Source: Collibacillus ludicampi (GTDB taxonomy: Bacteria > Bacillota > Bacilli > Tumebacillales > BOQE01). Taken from it: a DNA stretch of 64,000 nucleotides. Made by a program: the position numbers and the translations under genes. The number at the start of each line of letters is the position of its first letter. Within the stretch, counting starts at the first letter, position 1. Below the pieces are notes generated by a model that saw only the letters and a list, made by a program, of their open reading frames with translations, was not told where the DNA came from and did not search any database. Positions 4,101 through 51,756 of this stretch are shown in pieces. The stretch covers positions 3,752,710 through 3,816,709 of the forward strand of contig NZ_BOQE01000001.1 in NCBI RefSeq assembly GCF_023705585.1, given 5' to 3'.

Positions 4101-4133
4101 AAAAGCTTGCCAGACTTATTCTGACAAGCTTTT
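4101..4133 (-). terminator. Terminator at the end of aroA
   Basis: Stem AAGCTTGTCAG/CTGGCAAGCTT with an AATAAGT loop and a following TTTT on the minus strand. The aroA stop codon lies inside the hairpin, so the operon trpD...aroA ends here. Confidence 0.7.
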
Positions 4134-5423
4134 CATTTTGCATCCGAGTGCATTCATCGTGTTGCAAAAACCGGGAAACGATACGTCGACCGATTCACAG
4201 TCACGGATGACAGTCGTTCCCTCAGCTACACTACCTGCTACAGCGAGAGCCATACCGATACGATGGTCATGATAACTTTCACAGGTAGCTCCTACCAGTG
4301 GTGTAGGACCGTCGATGATGAGGCCATCCTCCAACTCTTCGATTCGCGCGCCCATTTTCCGTAACTCAGTGGTGATCGTATGTAAACGATCCGACTCTTT
4401 CACCCGAAGTTCGGCCGCGTCGCGAATCACAGTTCTTCCTTCCGCTTGTGTGGCCGCGACTGCGAGAATAGGGATTTCGTCGATCATGCGCGGAATCAAG
4501 TCACCTCCGAACTCAGCCGCACGCAACTGCGTTCCTTTGACCCATAGATCCGCAACGACTTCTCCCGAAAGCATACGTGTATTTTCAAGTCGAATCTCCG
4601 CACCCATCTTAATGAGCGCATCGATCAAACCTGTGCGCGTAGAGTTGATACCCACATTCTCAATGAGAATTTCGCTTCCTTCGAGTAAACAGGCCGCTAC
4701 CAGCGGGAAGGCCGCCGAAGAAATGTCTCCGGGTACATGCACGTCGGTGGCTCTTAACCGGGAGCCCCCCCGCACGCATATATACCCATCCTCCTGAAAG
4801 ACATCTACAGAAAATGAACGCAACATTCGCTCTGTATAATCCCGCGTCAACGTTGGTTCCTTAACACCTGTAACGCCTTCCGCATACAAACCTGCCAGTA
4901 ATATACATGATTTGACCTGGGCGCTCGCCATCGGTGTCTCATATCGAATGGCGGAAAGATTTCCTCCACGTATCGACAAGGGAGCATATTTCCCTTCTCC
5001 CCGTCCGTCGATAACAGCTCCCATTTGCCGTAAAGGTATCGTAACACGCCCCATGGGACGGCGGCGGATTGAGGCATCCCCTGTCAATGTGGTATGAAAG
5101 GGTTGTCCCGCCAGGATCCCAAGAAGCAAACGAATCGTTGTTCCCGAATTTCCGACGTCAAGTACATCTTCCGCTTCCTTCAGGCCATCCACCCCGACCC
5201 CGTGTATGCGCAGGCGAGTGGAGCTAATCTCATCGATTTTTACACCGAGTTGCCGGAATGCGCGAACGGTCGACCGACAATCGGCACCCGGCAGAAACCC
5301 GGATACTTCTGTAATTCCATCGGCCAAAGCGCCTAACATGACTGCGCGGTGAGAAATCGATTTGTCTCCAGGTACGACCGTTTGTCCATTGAGTTCGGGC
5401 GCTTTTTCGACTGCAATCTTCAT
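4116..5423 (-). CDS. aroA: 3-phosphoshikimate 1-carboxyvinyltransferase (EPSP synthase)
   Basis: Condenses shikimate-3-phosphate with phosphoenolpyruvate, the sixth step of the shikimate pathway, in the cytoplasm. At 435 residues it has family length. It shows PGDKSISHR near the N-terminus, the LDVGNSGTT loop near 90, RRPMGR near 122, and the C-terminal DHRIGMA. This is the gene called aroE in B. subtilis. It lies 65 bases downstream of trpA on the same strand, so it is probably the last gene of the trp unit; hisC and tyrA, which separate trpA and aroE in B. subtilis, are missing here. A terminator overlaps its stop. Confidence 0.97.
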   Translation of the reverse strand: MKIAVEKAPELNGQTVVPGDKSISHRAVMLGALADGITEVSGFLPGADCRSTVRAFRQLGVKIDEISSTRLRIHGVGVDGLKEAEDVLDVGNSGTTIRLLLGILAGQPFHTTLTGDASIRRRPMGRVTIPLRQMGAVIDGRGEGKYAPLSIRGGNLSAIRYETPMASAQVKSCILLAGLYAEGVTGVKEPTLTRDYTERMLRSFSVDVFQEDGYICVRGGSRLRATDVHVPGDISSAAFPLVAACLLEGSEILIENVGINSTRTGLIDALIKMGAEIRLENTRMLSGEVVADLWVKGTQLRAAEFGGDLIPRMIDEIPILAVAATQAEGRTVIRDAAELRVKESDRLHTITTELRKMGARIEELEDGLIIDGPTPLVGATCESYHDHRIGMALAVAGSVAEGTTVIRDCESVDVSFPGFCNTMNALGCKMKSLSE

Positions 5424-5488
5424 AAACTACCTCCGTTACAAAACTCTGTTAGAGTAATCTAAAGTATCGCTACCATTCTATTATTTTA

Positions 5489-6310
5489 TCATCGCAAGGA
5501 GGCCTTCAATGATTGGGCGAAGTGCACGATCTCTGCAAATGCTTTCTCTGCTTTCTCCTGATCACCGATTTCACGAGCTTTTGCCAGGAGAGATACGCGA
5601 TTGACGAGCGCAGAACCGACGATCACGCCGTCTGCATATTTTCCAATCTCTTCTGCCTGCTCGGGCGAACCTACGCCAAACCCGACCGCTATCGGCAAAG
5701 AAGTCTTCTTTCGCACTTCTTGCACGAATGCAGGCAATCCTTCCGCGAATGCGGCGCGTACCCCTGTAACACCTAATGAGGACACGCAGTAAATAAAACC
5801 GCTCGCTTGTTTACAGATCGTCTCGATACGGCCTACGCTCGTAGGTGCTACCAGAGGGATCAAATCCACTCCATACGTCTTGGCTGCATTCCGTGCTTCT
5901 TCCGCCTCTTCTGCGGGCAAATCAGGAATGATTACCCCGTCCGCCCCAATCTCAGCAGCCGTTTGAAAAAATCGTTCTGTTCCCCATTGGATGACCGGAT
6001 TCACGTAAGTAAACAAAACGAGCGGAACGGAAACCCCTTCCGCACGCATTTGACGAACCAACGCGAACACATTGGGCAAGCGCGTTCCCTGTATGAGGCT
6101 TCGCAAGGCGGAGGCTTGTATAGTCGGTCCGTCGGCAAGCGGGTCTGAATAAGGAATGCCTAATTCAATGATATCCGCCCCTACGCTTTCGAGTAAACGA
6201 ACAATTCGTTTCGTATCCTCAAGCGATGGGTCTCCGGCTGTTACGAAGGGAATGAATGCGCGTTCCCCTTTCTCCGCCAATTGTTTGAAACGTTCCGTAA
6301 TTCGGCTCAT
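5489..6310 (-). CDS. trpA: Tryptophan synthase alpha subunit
   Basis: Cleaves indole-3-glycerol phosphate to indole and glyceraldehyde-3-phosphate, passing indole to TrpB through the alpha2-beta2 tunnel. 273 residues. Visible: [10 protein letters not shown] near 20, [14 protein letters not shown] with the catalytic Glu and Asp near 47-60, and GFGVGSPEQ near 210 for the phosphate site. Start overlaps the trpB stop by four bases (ATGA), giving translational coupling and equal amounts of both subunits. Confidence 0.97.
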
Positions 6311-7515
6311 TGAACGCGCCCCCCTTGATATTTCAAAATGCTTTGCACATCCTTATCACCACGTCCCGAAAGATTGATGACCATCAAATGGTCTTTTGGC
6401 AAGCTCGGAGCCATTTTCATCGCTTGTGCGACCGCATGTGCGCTCTCCAATGCAGGAATGATGCCTTCAAGTTTTGTTAAGAGAGCGAACGCTTCCAGCG
6501 CCTCTTCATCACTGATCGGTACGTACGTTGCACGTCCGCTCGATGCAAGAAATGCATGTTCCGGACCGATACCGGGATAGTCAAGCCCTGCCGATATCGA
6601 ATGTGCGGGAAGTACTTGTCCATATTCGTCTTGCAATAACATCGTCAATGAACCGTGGATGACACCAGGCCGCCCTTTGGTAATGGTGGCCGCATGACGG
6701 TCCGTATCGACTCCTTCCCCGGATGCCTCGACACCGATCAAACGAACGCTCTCGTCTTCTAAGAAAGGATAAAAAATACCGATCGCGTTGGAACCCCCTC
6801 CTACACAAGCGATAATTGTGTCAGGAAGCCGTCCCTCTTTTTCTATCATTTGTTTGCGCACTTCATCCCCAATGATCCGTTGAAAATCACGGACGATCAT
6901 AGGATATGGATGCGGACCAACGACCGAACCGATGATATAAAACGTATCCTCAACATGTTCAACCCAATGGCGAATCGCTTCATTCGTGGCATCTTTCAAT
7001 GTTCGTGTTCCTGATGTCGCGGGAATCACTTCCGCGCCTAACATCCTCATGCGAAACACATTTAACTCCTGACGAGCTATATCTTCTTCCCCCATGAAGA
7101 CCTTGCATTCCAATCCCAATAAAGCGGATACGGTCGCTGTTGCTACACCGTGCTGGCCAGCACCGGTTTCGGCGATCACCCTTTTTTTCCCCGTGTATTT
7201 TGCCAACAAACCCTGGCCTAACGTATTATTGATCTTATGGGCACCCGTATGATTTAAATCTTCCCGTTTCAGATAAATTTTGGCGCCCCCAAGATAAGAG
7301 GTTAATCGTTCCGCAAAGTACAAAGGAGTTTCACGACCGCTATATTCTTTTAATAGATATTGTAATTCGGCTTGAAATTGCGGATCGACACGGTATTTAC
7401 GGTAATCACTCTCCAATTGATTCAAGGCAGCCATCAAGGTCTCGGGAACGAACTTGCCGCCAAAAGCTCCGAAGCGTCCGCGTTCGTCCGGATATTTGCT
7501 ATACATTCCATTCAT
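6307..7515 (-). CDS. trpB: Tryptophan synthase beta subunit
   Basis: PLP enzyme joining indole and serine to give tryptophan. About 402 residues from the ATG at 7515, chosen because it overlaps the trpF stop as ATGA; a longer frame to 7563 lies within trpF. The PLP lysine is in the HTGAHKINN segment, the glycine-rich phosphate loop is GGGSNAIG, and the N-terminal [15 protein letters not shown] is typical. It is the usual TrpB1 type that works with the adjacent TrpA. Confidence 0.97.
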
Positions 7516-8150
7516 GCGCTTTCTCTCACTTTCTTGACAAAACGTTCGATTAAATGGGGACATTTTTGTCCATTGAGTTCTACTCCGGAAGAAACGTCAA
7601 CACCATCGGGACGATAATGACTGATCAAAGCGGAAACGTTTGCGACAGTCAATCCTCCAGCGACAAAAAGAGGCACAGTTCCCAACCTCCGGCGAAATTC
7701 CGGGATACACCCCCAGTGGAATACCTGACCCGTTCCCCCTAGTTGTCCGGCGCGATAACTGTCCAGCAGTATGGCATCTACCGCACTACCATACCGTTCG
7801 ATCATATGATCATCCGCATTGTTTCGCACGCGCCATGCTTTCCAAACTTCCTTGCCTGTCATTTCTTTCAAAATACGGCACAATTCCGGACTTTCGTCAC
7901 CATGCAACTGATAAACGGATAAATTCGCTTCCTGCCCGATCCGAACCAATTCATTCAGAGGGGCATTCACAAATACGCCTACCCTCTTGATATATTCCGG
8001 AATCCCTTCGCCAATGGCCCTCGCGGTTGCCGCATTCACTTGTCGCTTACTACTCGCAAAAACAAAACCGAGGTGGGTGACCGATTGATGAACCGCAGCT
8101 CGTGCCGCAGCGTGATCCATAATGCCGCAGATTTTGATCTTCACTGACAT
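7512..8150 (-). CDS. trpF: Phosphoribosylanthranilate isomerase
   Basis: Amadori rearrangement of phosphoribosyl anthranilate to CdRP. 212 residues. The N-terminal KIKICGI supplies the catalytic Cys and the later [19 protein letters not shown] segment the catalytic Asp and phosphate-binding loop; FVAGGL and DVSSGVE follow in the order expected for this barrel. Overlaps trpC by ten bases and trpB by four. Confidence 0.95.
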
Positions 8151-8935
8151 GGCGAACCTCCGAGCAATGTTTTGATCGCATGCTGTATCGATTGTGCACG
8201 CATTAGCGATTCACCGACCAAGATCGCTTTGGCTCCTGCGTTACGGACAAACTCAACATCCGCGTATGAACTGATCCCGCTCTCCGATACGAGGAATGTG
8301 CCTGGCGGGATACAATCGGCAAGTCTCGCCGTCGTGTGAAGGTCAACCGTAAAATCGTGCAGATCCCGGTTATTCACACCGATGAGAGTCGCTCCAGATG
8401 AGAGAGCGCGATCCAATTCCCTTTCATCATGCACTTCCACGAGCGCATCGAGCCCAAGGCTCTCAGCAAGCCTGCGAAAATTGCGCAACTCTCTCTCTGA
8501 TAACACCGCTGCGATGAGAAGAATCGCATCGGCCCCTATGAGACGCGCTTCATAAATTTGACGCTCATCGATGATAAAATCCTTACGCAAAATTGGAAGT
8601 TTAACCGTTTGACTCACATTTGTAAGATATTTCGGGCTTCCTTGGAAGAAACGGACATCAGTCAACACGGAAATGCAAGCCGCACCGAACGCTTCATACT
8701 GCGACGCGATGTGGACCGGGTCAAAATGTGCGGCAATCACACCTTTAGAAGGAGAGGCTTTTTTCACTTCTGCGATCAATGCTACCGGTCCCCCCGCTTC
8801 TTCTAACGTTCGACGAAAACCGCGGGTGGAAGGAAGCGATGCGATCTTTTTCTCAACATTCCCCAGTTGGAACGTCTCGGCGAGACGTTCCAACTCTTGC
8901 CGTTTCACTGCGATAATTTGATCCAAAATCATCAT
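8141..8935 (-). CDS. trpC: Indole-3-glycerol phosphate synthase
   Basis: Closes the indole ring of CdRP with loss of CO2. 264 residues, monofunctional as in Bacillus. Visible: IAEVKKASPSKG near 55 with the catalytic Lys, ILRKDFIID near 115, LIGVNNRDL near 183 and SESGIS near 215. Start overlaps the trpD stop (ATGA). Confidence 0.96.
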   Translation of the reverse strand: MMILDQIIAVKRQELERLAETFQLGNVEKKIASLPSTRGFRRTLEEAGGPVALIAEVKKASPSKGVIAAHFDPVHIASQYEAFGAACISVLTDVRFFQGSPKYLTNVSQTVKLPILRKDFIIDERQIYEARLIGADAILLIAAVLSERELRNFRRLAESLGLDALVEVHDERELDRALSSGATLIGVNNRDLHDFTVDLHTTARLADCIPPGTFLVSESGISSYADVEFVRNAGAKAILVGESLMRAQSIQHAIKTLLGGSPCQ

Positions 8936-9966
8936 GCCAACTCCTTCTGCGCCACGTATTGCTGCGATACTTCACAAAGATGTGAAAGGAGAGCGTACGC
9001 ACTGCCGCTATCGATCGCCTGCTCCGCCATTCGCACGCCGTGCTCTAATGTTTCTGCTTTTCCCGCTACGTAGATGCTTGCGGCCGCATTCAGAACAACG
9101 ATATCCCTTGCTCCGCCGGGCTCTCCTTTCAATACGCGGCGAATGATCTCCGCATTTTCCTTCGGTAATCCGCCTCGTACAGATCGTAACGGATGACGTG
9201 ATAAGCCCAATTCTTCGGGGGTGACCGTATATGTCACTATTTCTCCGTTTTTCAACTCTGCGACAAATGTTTCTCCCGTGATCGTGAATTCGTCCAAGCC
9301 GTCACAGCCATGGACGATCAGCGCATGTTCCGAACCCAGTAAACGTAATACGTGAGCAACTTTTACAGGCAAATCAGCGGAAAATGTACCGATCACCTGC
9401 CTTTTCGCACCGGCCGGATTCGTCAGCGGTCCTAAAATATTGAATACCGTGCGAAATCCCAGTTCTTGGCGCGGTACCGCAGCGTATTTCATCGCTTGGT
9501 GATACAAAGGTGCAAACAAAAAGCAAATGCCCGTTTTCTTCAGACATGCCACTGCTTGCTCCGGTGTTAACTCTATGGCAACTCCCAATTCAGAGAGTAC
9601 GTCCGCACTCCCGCTTTGGCTGGAGACCGCTCGATTCCCGTGCTTTGCAATCGGTACGCCCGCCGCTGCAGCTACAAACGAGGCGGCTGTCGAAATATTA
9701 AACGTCCTTGCACCATCTCCACCTGTACCGCAAGTATCGACCAATCCCTCAATTCCCGTTTCAAATGAAAAGGAAAGGCTTCTCATCGTTTTCGCAAAGC
9801 CTGCGATTTCATCGGGAGTTTCCCCTTTGACACGCAGGGCCGTGATGAATCCCGCGATTTGTGCGGGTGTGGCAAGACCGGTCATGATATGTTCCATGAT
9901 CGCTTGTGCTTCCTCGAAGGACAGGTGTTTCCCGTCAATGAGCTTGTTCAGCGCTTGTTTCATCAT
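8932..9966 (-). CDS. trpD: Anthranilate phosphoribosyltransferase, first gene of this trp unit
   Basis: Transfers phosphoribose from PRPP to anthranilate. About 344 residues; DTCGTGGDG near 80 binds PRPP and KHGNRAVSS near 108 is the partner loop. The start is taken at 9966, nine bases after AGGAG, because family members begin with this segment; the longer frame to 10053 would translate the leader. The ribosome site is embedded in an array of GAG triplets, so TRAP binding could block initiation. There is no trpE before it, although B. subtilis has trpE in this place; anthranilate synthase must be encoded elsewhere. Confidence 0.95.
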   Translation of the reverse strand: MMKQALNKLIDGKHLSFEEAQAIMEHIMTGLATPAQIAGFITALRVKGETPDEIAGFAKTMRSLSFSFETGIEGLVDTCGTGGDGARTFNISTAASFVAAAAGVPIAKHGNRAVSSQSGSADVLSELGVAIELTPEQAVACLKKTGICFLFAPLYHQAMKYAAVPRQELGFRTVFNILGPLTNPAGAKRQVIGTFSADLPVKVAHVLRLLGSEHALIVHGCDGLDEFTITGETFVAELKNGEIVTYTVTPEELGLSRHPLRSVRGGLPKENAEIIRRVLKGEPGGARDIVVLNAAASIYVAGKAETLEHGVRMAEQAIDSGSAYALLSHLCEVSQQYVAQKELA

Positions 9967-9971
9967 CTTTC

Positions 9972-10010
9972 TCTCGCTCCTCTCATCTTCACTCGACTCG
10001 TCTCTACTCA
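9972..10010 (-). promoter_or_regulatory. GAG-triplet array over the trpD ribosome site (putative TRAP site 2)
   Basis: On the minus strand triplets begin at 10009, 10004, 9999, 9994, 9989, 9984 and 9979, each five bases apart: GAG, GAG, GAG, GAG, AAG, GAG, GAG, then one more GAG at 9975. The GAG at 9979-9977 is part of the AGGAG ribosome site of trpD. TRAP (MtrB) binds (G/U)AG repeats spaced by two or three bases, and in B. subtilis such arrays over ribosome sites repress translation (trpG, trpP). mtrB is present in this window. Confidence 0.8.
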
Positions 10011-10072
10011 CGTGAACGGACGCTGGAACCTCATGGAGTCGTAGCCAGTACATTCTGCCAATGAATGTATAG

Positions 10073-10098
10073 AAAAAGTCAGAGCGATCGCCCTGACT
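10073..10098 (-). terminator. Attenuator-like terminator in the trpD leader
   Basis: Stem GTCAGGGCGAT/ATCGCTCTGAC-like palindrome followed by five T residues on the minus strand. It lies between the upstream GAG array and trpD, as the overlapping terminator does in the B. subtilis trp leader. A second hairpin, ATAAGAAC/GTTCTTAT, lies just upstream. Confidence 0.7.
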
Positions 10099-10146
10099 GA
10101 AACATTCAAAGAGTATGACAAAATATAAGAACCAGATGTTCTTATG

Positions 10147-10200
10147 CTCTCATCTCACTCAACTCTGCTCGTCTCAGCCTGGCCTTACTCACTGATCTAC
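10147..10200 (-). promoter_or_regulatory. GAG-triplet array in the trpD leader (putative TRAP site 1)
   Basis: Minus-strand triplets UAG at 10199, GAG at 10090 relative position 10190, then GAG at 10175, 10170, 10165, 10160, 10156 and 10151/10149. The central ones have the two-base spacing that TRAP requires. The array precedes a terminator hairpin, so TRAP bound with tryptophan could favour termination as in B. subtilis. Number of usable triplets is about eight, fewer than the eleven of the B. subtilis trp leader. Confidence 0.75.
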
Positions 10201-10249
10201 TGAACCATCATAGAATCCACATATTTGGACTCTCCATTTCTTACAAAAG

Positions 10250-10278
10250 AGTGTAACCCGTATGCTCGAGATCGTCAA
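10250..10278 (-). promoter_or_regulatory. Sigma-A-like promoter for trpDCFBA
   Basis: Minus strand: TTGACG at 10278-10273, 17-base spacer, TACACT at 10255-10250. It lies downstream of the aroH stop and would begin a leader of about 275 nt containing both GAG arrays and the terminator. Confidence 0.65.
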
Positions 10279-10330: not shown

Positions 10331-10702
10331 TCATATCTTGTTGACGAGATCCGGGCGTAACACAGTTGCCCCTCGCAAATACACATGGTGAATTTCACTT
10401 TGCGATTTCACCGTGTTCACATGCATGAGAACGCGGATACAACGAGGAAGAGAACCTGGAACGGGCATCTCAAGCGCACACATGACGGGAACAAGCTCCC
10501 ATCCTGCTCTTCCCCTGATCACACGTGCGGGGAAATCCGCGTTCAAGTCTGAAGTTACCGTTACCATGACGGATGCAACGTCATCAGGTACAAGATGATT
10601 GGCTTCGATCATTCGCGAAACCAGCTCCTCGGTAGCGGAGATGATCGCTTCGGATGTATTCGCTTCGACAGTAGTCGCCCCGCGCACTCCTCGTACCATC
10701 AT
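10331..10702 (-). CDS. aroH: Chorismate mutase, AroH type
   Basis: Converts chorismate to prephenate for phenylalanine and tyrosine. 123 residues, the size of the monofunctional trimeric B. subtilis enzyme. [10 protein letters not shown] at the N-terminus includes the active-site Arg, and the VPVMCALEMPVPGSLPRCIRVL stretch (written here in part) holds the Cys and Arg of the pocket. Start overlaps the aroB stop (ATGA). Confidence 0.95.
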   Translation of the reverse strand: MMVRGVRGATTVEANTSEAIISATEELVSRMIEANHLVPDDVASVMVTVTSDLNADFPARVIRGRAGWELVPVMCALEMPVPGSLPRCIRVLMHVNTVKSQSEIHHVYLRGATVLRPDLVNKI

Positions 10703-11814
10703 GAAGCTCTCTCCCTTCGTACGTCGATCGAATCAATAACTGATTGAAGAGGCACGTCTTTCACAATAGAAACACGCCCTATGTCTTCGGCAATAACAAA
10801 CGTCAGTGTCTTACCGATTGCTTTCTTATCTTGACGCATAAAAGAGACTAATTCATTCGTGGACAACGAAGCCGGAATATGAACGGGCAATCCCGCCTTT
10901 AGAAGGCAACGCTCCGTTCGAACCAAGTCTTGACTCGATAAGTAACCGAGCCGCGAAGATAACTCGGCGGCAAAGGCAATTCCTATGGAAACCGCCTCTC
11001 CGTGTGTGAAGACTCCGTATCCCGCAAGACCTTCTATTGCGTGCGCGAGCGTATGTCCGTAATTTAAGATCGCTCTCAATCCCTGCTCTTTTTCGTCCTT
11101 CGCGACGACGGCCGCCTTGATCGCGCAGGATCTTGCCAACATATCCACGAGAATGGCCGAATCCAACGACAACATCTCCTCCATGTTCCGCTCGATCCAG
11201 AAGAAAAATTCACGATCCCAAATTAATCCGTGCTTGATCACTTCAGCAATCCCTGAACGGATTTCCCGTGGAGGCAATGTACGCAGGGTATTTACGTCAT
11301 ATAATACGAATTCCGGTTGGTGAAATGCGCCAATAATATTTTTCCCTCGCGGATGGTTGACAGCCACCTTGCCGCCTACAGCACTATCATGTGCTAGGAC
11401 GGTCGTCGGGACTTGAACGAATGAGATCCCGCGCATGTATGTAGCCGCGACAAAGCCAGCCAAGTCTCCTACCACCCCGCCTCCTAATGCGATAATAGTC
11501 GATCGGCGGTCGAGCCCGGCGTTAAACGCGGCATCATATAACCGTTCAGCCTGGTCGAGGTTTTTTGATTCCTCACCAGGTGGCACTTCAACAACGGTGA
11601 CTGAATATCCACTTTGCTCGAGCGACTCTTTCGCCACTTCGAGGTGGCCCGCCTTGCTCACATGTTCGTCCGTCACCAGTAGAATGTGAGACGTCTCAGA
11701 CAAATCCGCCCGTCTCATCTCCTCCCCCAAAGAGCGCAAAACTCCATCCCCTATGATGATCTCATATCCGCGCTCCCCCAAATCGACTCGCAACCTTTTC
11801 ACATCGTCCGTCAT
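10699..11814 (-). CDS. aroB: 3-dehydroquinate synthase
   Basis: NAD- and metal-dependent cyclisation of DAHP to dehydroquinate, second step of the shikimate pathway. 371 residues. Visible: [15 protein letters not shown] near 108, [14 protein letters not shown] near 137 (family usually has LAQ or LAH), and the metal-site region [12 protein letters not shown] near 250. Coupled by ATGA overlaps to aroC before it and aroH after it. Confidence 0.97.
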
Positions 11815-12971
11815 CGTGCTCTCACCGCCGACAAATAACTTTCGTAATTGCGTTTCATTTCTTCCAGCGAATCTCCGCCAAACTTTTCACAGAATGCCTG
11901 GGCGATCGTCCAGGCAGTTACCGCTTCGCCTACTACCGCTGCTGCAGGCGCGGCACAAACATCTGAACGTTCGACCGTCGCTTCATACTTCTCTTTTGTT
12001 TTCAAATCGACACTGCGCAGCGGTTTGTAGAGTGTTGGAATAGGTTTCATCGCCGCGCGCACGATGATTGGCTCACCGTTCGAAATTCCTCCTTCGATAC
12101 CTCCCGCACCATTCGTTTCGCGATAAAATCCACGTTTTTCGTCATAGAAGATCTCATCATGTACTTCCGATCCCACTCTCCTTGCTGCATCAAATCCCAG
12201 ACCGATTTCCACTCCTTTGATCGCCTGGATACCCATCAATGCGCATGCCAAACGGGCATCGAGCCGCCGATCGGGCATCGAGTAGGAACCAAGTCCAACA
12301 GGTACACCTGTCACTACAACTTCGAATATCCCTCCGAGTGAATTGCCCTCCTTACGCGTTCTCTTAATCAATTCAATGATTTCCTGTTCCTTGACAGGAT
12401 CCGCGACGCGAACTTCCGACTTCTCTGCTCTTGCTGCGATCTCTTCGATACTTCCTTCAAGAGGTCCCACTTGAATCGGGCCAATTTCGACCAAATGGCT
12501 GTAAATACGAATATTAAAAATTTCCAACAATTGTCTCGCTACTGCCCCGACGGCAACCAGTGTCGCCGTGTTCCGTGCGCTTGCTCGTTCGAGCACATTT
12601 CTCACATCATCGTGTGCGTATTTCAAAGCGCCTGAGAGATCCGCATGACCTGGCCGGGGCTTGGTGACAACAGCCAGATCAGCCGGAGGTTCCCCTTCAA
12701 CAGCCATCCGCTCTTGCCAGTTCTTCCAATCTTTATTGATGACATGCAGGGTTAGTGGAGAACCCAACGTTTTCCCAAACCGCAGACCGCTTGTAATTTC
12801 CACGCGATCCGTTTCGATTTTCATTCGGCCCCCCCTGCCGTATCCTTGCTGGCGACGCCATAACTGATGGTTGATCTGGTCGGTGGAAAGCGGCACATGG
12901 CTCGGCAACCCTTCTATGATCGCCGTTAATTCCGGTCCATGAGATTCACCGGCAGTCAAATAGCGTAGCAT
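11811..12971 (-). CDS. aroC: Chorismate synthase
   Basis: Makes chorismate from EPSP with reduced FMN. About 386 residues. Signature segments: [10 protein letters not shown] at the N-terminus, [12 protein letters not shown] near 43, RPGHAD near 105, [15 protein letters not shown] near 132, and the C-terminal [14 protein letters not shown]. Called aroF in B. subtilis. Start set at the ATG at 12971, nine bases after AAAGGGG; a TTG precedes it at 12974. It opens the operon aroC-aroB-aroH. Confidence 0.97.
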
Positions 12972-12989
12972 CAATCGAATCCCCTTTCC

Positions 12990-28190: not shown

Positions 28191-28421
28191 TCAATCTTCT
28201 GAAGTCGTATCGATTTGTCCTACTTTCGTATAAACGACCGCTTTCCCTCGGACTTTGATGGCTGACGTGTGTTCCGTGAATTGAGCGATCATGATTTCGC
28301 CTTTATCCAACTTCTCTGCATGATGAAAGCGGGTATCCTGGCCTCGCGTCAAGCCGAAGACTTGAACACCGTTCTCTTTAGCCCGAATGACTATATAATC
28401 TCCCAGTGATGGTTCTGACAT
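28191..28421 (-). CDS. mtrB: trp RNA-binding attenuation protein (TRAP)
   Basis: Ring-forming RNA-binding protein that, with tryptophan, wraps RNA carrying (G/U)AG repeats and lowers trp expression. 76 residues from the ATG at 28421, nine bases after [26 protein letters not shown] and [13 protein letters not shown] match the B. subtilis protein closely and include its Lys and Arg contacts with RNA and Gly/Thr contacts with tryptophan. Its likely targets are the GAG arrays at 9972-10010 and 10147-10200. Confidence 0.96.
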
Positions 28422-28586
28422 GCGATTTCTCCCTCTCAATGATTACACTTAAGGATTCTCAATAAAAAAGTTTCCTTGTTAAGTATTGATTGAATGTTAA
28501 TTATACCACAAGACAATCCTATTTGCCATCCTGTCCACGAATACGTGAAGCGCGAGCGGTTATTCTATAAGTGGGAGGTGATGAAG

Positions 28587-28769
28587 ATGCCAAACGGCGT
28601 CAGATGCGGTGTTGAAGAATGCATCTATAACTCCGATTATGCTTGTACGGCAGAAAGTATCGAAGTGATGAGCAACGGAAACGATATTGTCGGGACAACC
28701 AAAGGTACGCGATGCGCTACGTTTGAGTTCGAAAAACACACAAACAGACACGGGGAAATCGTGCGTTAA
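28587..28769 (+). CDS. DUF1540 protein
   Basis: 60 residues from the ATG at 28587, eight bases after GGGAGG; the frame could be extended to 28494 but without a ribosome site. Four cysteines in the spacing typical of DUF1540 (VRCGVEECIYN, YACTAESIEV, TRCATFE) suggest metal binding. Function unknown. Divergent from mtrB; followed by its own terminator. Confidence 0.8.
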   Translation: MPNGVRCGVEECIYNSDYACTAESIEVMSNGNDIVGTTKGTRCATFEFEKHTNRHGEIVR

Positions 28770-51637: not shown

Positions 51638-51756
51638 GAACGGAATCTCTTATCTCTCAGGATGGTAATCCTGCAGGAATTGGCACCGCTGCATCGAAAG
51701 ATGCCGGTTGCCGGGCTTCATCGGGCCAGTCCCTCCGCCAACTCTGGATAAGAATC
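51638..51756 (-). promoter_or_regulatory. SAM-I riboswitch (S box)
   Basis: Minus strand holds the S-box core: GGAGGGACTGGCCCGATGAA, then GCCCGGCAACC, GGTGCCAATTCC and the closing helix TCTTATC/GATAAGA (51753-51747 with 51654-51648). A terminator follows. Well-known class; SAM binding would end transcription before metI. Confidence 0.96.

Follow-up and report, generated by a model that had tools for sequence, protein, structure and literature searches.

Two TRAP-type arrays in series on the trpDCFBA-aroA transcript of Collibacillus ludicampi suggest tandem control by attenuation and ribosome-site occlusion

In Collibacillus ludicampi, the transcript of trpDCFBA-aroA probably carries two TRAP sites in series (a probability of roughly 0.8 in our estimate), one of which would act by transcription attenuation and the other by direct occlusion of the trpD ribosome site. 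Both lie in a 64,000-nucleotide stretch of the genome, which was analyzed in full and is referred to here as the window. The regulation of trp genes in Bacillus subtilis is a textbook case, and attenuation and ribosome-site occlusion are each already known in that species; what appears to be new here is a second, dedicated TRAP-type site over trpD. No TRAP site at trpD was reported in the open-licence literature that we searched, and a report elsewhere is possible. A preliminary description of this DNA had proposed tandem transcriptional and translational control, and this is the reading best supported by the sequence: TRAP is encoded in the window, no promoter-like match separates the two arrays, a switch between alternative leader folds was computed, and the arrangement is conserved.

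The features of the locus are listed in Table 1. The gap between aroH and trpD spans about 360 bases and contains, in order, a promoter, array A, a terminator, and array B. The first gene of the operon is trpD. Its start, for which relatives were also compared, was placed at the tandem ATG rather than at the first ATG of the open reading frame (10053). trpE is absent from the operon; a trpG-trpE pair is located on the same contig, at a distance of about 146 kb from trpD, and its trpG has a single ribosome-site array of the type seen at trpD. Judging from the promoter match, transcription would start near 10243. No promoter-like match was found between array A and array B, and a search of the 64-kb window gave no Rfam match for the trp leader. 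Elsewhere in the window, a SAM riboswitch (Rfam RF00162) was identified at 51647-51754 on the minus strand.

Table 1. Features of the trp locus and the TRAP gene, with positions counted from the first nucleotide of the window
Feature	Position	Strand	Details
mtrB (TRAP)	28191..28439	-	Pfam TrpBP PF02081, 132 bits, E 5.3e-39
aroF-aroB-aroH (chorismate synthase, 3-dehydroquinate synthase, chorismate mutase)	10331..12974	-	upstream of the trp operon
Putative sigma-70-type promoter, TTGACG-N17-TACACT	10250..10278	-	sequence match; 12 of 13 order-mates carry a counterpart
Predicted 5' stem-loop	10212..10233	-	predicted fold; just past the inferred transcript start
Leader TRAP-type array A	10149..10199	-	core of six GAG (10175-10149); 11 NAG in total
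Predicted antiterminator	10090..10183	-	overlaps the 5' arm of the terminator
Intrinsic terminator	10077..10098	-	followed by a T run to about 10072
TRAP-type array B, eight triplets	9973..10009	-	over the trpD Shine-Dalgarno site (AGAGGAG, 9983-9977)
trpD	8932..9966	-	start ATGATG at 9966/9963
trpC, trpF, trpB, trpA, then EPSP synthase (aroA)	4116..8935	-	remainder of the operon

The two arrays differ in their regularity. Array B consists of GAG triplets at 10009, 10004, 9999, and 9994, AAG at 9989, and GAG at 9984, 9979, and 9975, so that seven triplets follow an exact 5-base period and the eighth lies one base closer. The coordinates (9972-10010) and spacing given in the preliminary description thus held, with the correction that one of the eight triplets is AAG. 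The array overlaps the Shine-Dalgarno region of trpD in the manner of the ribosome-site targets trpG, trpP, and ycbK, and no special folding was predicted for the array region itself (z 0.4). In array A, the core GAG triplets begin at 10175, 10170, 10165, 10160, 10156, and 10151, with one single-base spacer, and they are preceded by weaker triplets at 10199 (TAG), 10194 (CAG), 10190 (GAG), 10186 (AAG), and 10181 (CAG). This provides the (G/U)AG repeats in the leader, separated by 2-3 bases and downstream of the promoter, that are characteristic of attenuation arrays. Only six consecutive triplets are good and the remainder are weak, which counts against tandem control. The earlier placement of a second array at 10147-10200 ahead of a terminator hairpin agrees with the positions of this core and of the terminator with its T run.

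Under an explicit array model, array B scored 33.0 bits and array A 25.8 bits, and these were the only arrays of at least 16 bits on either strand of the 64 kb. Ten Markov-shuffled windows (640 kb) yielded a single array in the 17-bit bin and nothing above it. When the whole genome was scanned with a pattern of five triplets allowing at most one mismatch, only the ribosome sites of trpD and trpG and a single isolated place were matched.

We also analyzed the predicted folds of the leader. The predicted antiterminator pairs GCC and GGCTGAGAC, the latter reaching into array A, with GTTTCAGTC and GGC. When the whole leader is free, this antiterminator fold takes up the 5' arm of the terminator (-57.1 kcal/mol, z -3.6 against 200 shuffles), whereas holding array A unpaired allows the terminator to form (-42.9). 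The stretch 3' of array A, folded alone, gives the terminator and one small hairpin. By computation, antiterminator and terminator are therefore mutually exclusive in this genome and the antiterminator overlaps the array, which is the switch logic of the B. subtilis leader (PMC3913778). In most relatives, the terminator is the stronger fold whether the array is masked or not, and the energetic switch that is clear in this genome is not clear there. Because the switch energies in relatives are mixed, we do not claim that the energetic switch is conserved. A consensus fold of seven leaders contained two conserved hairpins, the terminator and one upstream of it, and no conserved antiterminator; in relatives, the antiterminator may be kinetic or absent.

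TRAP forms a ring with 11 or 12 subunits, and in its tryptophan-loaded form it binds RNA. The MtrB protein encoded in the window scored well above the TrpBP family cut-off of 21.3 bits and matched solved TRAP structures with E values from 1e-26 to 1e-63, its best PDB matches being MtrB/TRAP. The protein (MSEPSL...) likely begins at the ATG at 28421. The genes that follow mtrB are a hepS-type gene and a menaquinone methyltransferase gene, and a gene for a small DUF1540 protein (28494-28769, plus strand) is divergent from mtrB. A search of this genome for the anti-TRAP gene (PF15777) gave no match at E 0.01.

The TRAP targets listed for B. subtilis are the trp leader together with trpG, trpP, and ycbK, and the sites of the latter three lie in the translation start region (PMC11255114). 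The B. subtilis trp leader contains a single array of 11 triplets (PMC3913778). The preliminary description assigned attenuation to this leader array and placed ribosome-site arrays on other genes; the division stands, but the leader array also regulates translation of trpE by refolding the RNA around the trpE Shine-Dalgarno site (PMC11255114). The C. ludicampi leader resembles that of B. subtilis trpEDCFBA in having a GAG/UAG array after the promoter, an antiterminator overlapping the terminator, and an encoded TRAP. It differs in that its first gene is trpD, with trpE elsewhere, and in that a second dedicated array is present at the ribosome site of the first gene, whereas one array serves both levels in B. 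subtilis. Array B is similar to the sites of trpG, trpP, and ycbK in overlapping a translation start region, and by analogy it would block ribosome binding directly. However, those genes are located outside the trp operon and are described as having a translation-start site only, while here such a site is found downstream of an attenuation array in the same transcript.

Binding, its dependence on tryptophan, and the effect on expression are what we infer from the computed arrays, promoter, terminator, competing folds, TRAP gene, and conservation. When tryptophan is plentiful, tryptophan-loaded TRAP would wrap array A as it leaves RNA polymerase, which would block the antiterminator and let the terminator stop transcription before trpD. 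On transcripts that escape termination, and on readthrough transcripts from the aro genes upstream, TRAP would bind array B. With the trpD Shine-Dalgarno site covered, initiation of translation would be directly blocked, as is known for B. subtilis trpG and trpP. When tryptophan is scarce, both sites would be free, the antiterminator would form, and trpD would be transcribed and translated. Since trpG-trpE also has a ribosome-site array, the whole chorismate-to-tryptophan pathway would answer to one sensor.

To assess conservation, we compared 13 genomes of the same order (14 with C. ludicampi). In all 13, trpD likewise lies behind an aroH-like reading frame, and 12 have a promoter-like site ahead of the leader array. 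The leader array reached at least 18 bits in 13/13 and the array at the trpD start at least 14.9 bits in 12/13, the exception being L107. Both arrays are thus present before trpD in 12 of the 13 order-mates, as the preliminary description had proposed to look for. The 5-base periodicity, whose loss in relatives would have spoken against that proposal, is retained: within 60 bases upstream of trpD, the 14 genomes together have 51 pairs of GAG/TAG triplets at distance 5 against 11.6 expected (0 of 1,000 dinucleotide shuffles), with excesses also at distances 10 and 15. The spacers of the arrays vary among relatives while the triplets stay. TRAP was found in 11 of the 13 order-mates; the two without an MtrB match carry a leader array, and both are drafts of about 400 contigs.

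We then extended the comparison to 60 further genomes of the class, picked by TrpD similarity, giving 74 in all. In most of the 60, the leader array is located about 1.7 kb upstream of trpD, a distance expected if trpE comes first, and some have a second array at trpD. Among named species, Alicyclobacillus herbarius, A. tolerans, and A. montanus have the two arrays. A search for TRAP gave a match in 59 of the 60 genomes, and the sole genome without one (G043) shows no array. Judged from these sequences, the double-array arrangement is not peculiar to C. ludicampi; it is order-wide and recurs in several other families.

Other readings of the two arrays were considered. The array-like look of array B might be a coincidence in a Shine-Dalgarno region that is merely rich in purines, given that AGAGGAG itself supplies GAG triplets and that, against composition-matched shuffles of their own 60-base region, most genomes scored exceptionally but 3 of the 14 were unremarkable (25/300 shuffles in L095 and 66/300 in L102, with no array in L107). 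However, an array of at least 14 bits was found at the trpD start in 32 of the 74 genomes, and the 763 control starts of other genes, taken from genomes that encode TRAP, included none. Together with the strict 5-base period across the order, maintained through changing spacers, this control led us to reject chance resemblance, which we regard as extremely improbable.

It is also conceivable, though unlikely, that a single TRAP ring spans parts of both arrays with the terminator region looped out, making them one split site. The arrays share one transcript, and neither has as many strong triplets (6 and 8) as the leader of B. subtilis, with its 11 (PMC3913778). Such a ring is difficult to reconcile with the order of events, as termination is decided before array B exists, and with relatives in which both positions hold a nearly complete array (9 and 11 triplets in L096, 7 and 10 in L103). 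In other families, moreover, about 1.7 kb separate the trpD ribosome-site array and the leader array, and in two genomes of one family (L134 and L135, f24) the 4.5 kb read showed the trpD array and no leader array. Another reading holds that array B works chiefly through polarity, with TRAP blocking trpD translation and the untranslated message being ended by Rho or degraded, which would make the operon as a whole its real target. A block at trpD, the first gene, would expose the downstream message, and coupling and Rho effects in the B. subtilis trp operon are the subject of a paper cited in PMC11255114 (Yakhnin et al. 2001). Polarity of this kind would be an added consequence of tandem control rather than a true alternative to it, and as a separate account it seems doubtful.

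If tandem control by two sites is correct, the stacking of two TRAP sites in a single operon has evolved repeatedly, and the trpD double site would offer a clean test of how attenuation and a translation block share the work. A broader and more tentative proposal is that TRAP control of the aromatic pathway in this part of Bacillota is far wider than in B. subtilis, with double arrays at trpD (and at trpG in relatives) and further arrays over the ribosome sites of the chorismate synthase, DAHP synthase, and prephenate dehydratase genes, such that one sensor might set the flow through the whole chorismate branch point. This wider regulon is plausible, and we consider it the point most worth following.

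Arrays were also observed at other genes of the compared genomes. At the trpG-trpE locus of one order-mate (L226:1665-1804), a leader array and a ribosome-site array precede trpG, together with a terminator-like hairpin; in further order-mates, two separate arrays were found before trpG (L234, L235, and L224) or one long array (L233). A five-triplet array covers the prephenate dehydratase start in L230 and L237 (Pfam PDT and ACT for L230), and an array lies directly before a DAHP synthase/chorismate mutase gene in L236 and L238 (Pfam for L236). Short arrays run into the apparent start of chorismate synthase in L140, L166, and L170, where the gene was identified by its sequence only. Finally, an array precedes an EamA-type transporter gene (L228:1201-2178, minus strand); ycbK is a known TRAP target in B. 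subtilis.
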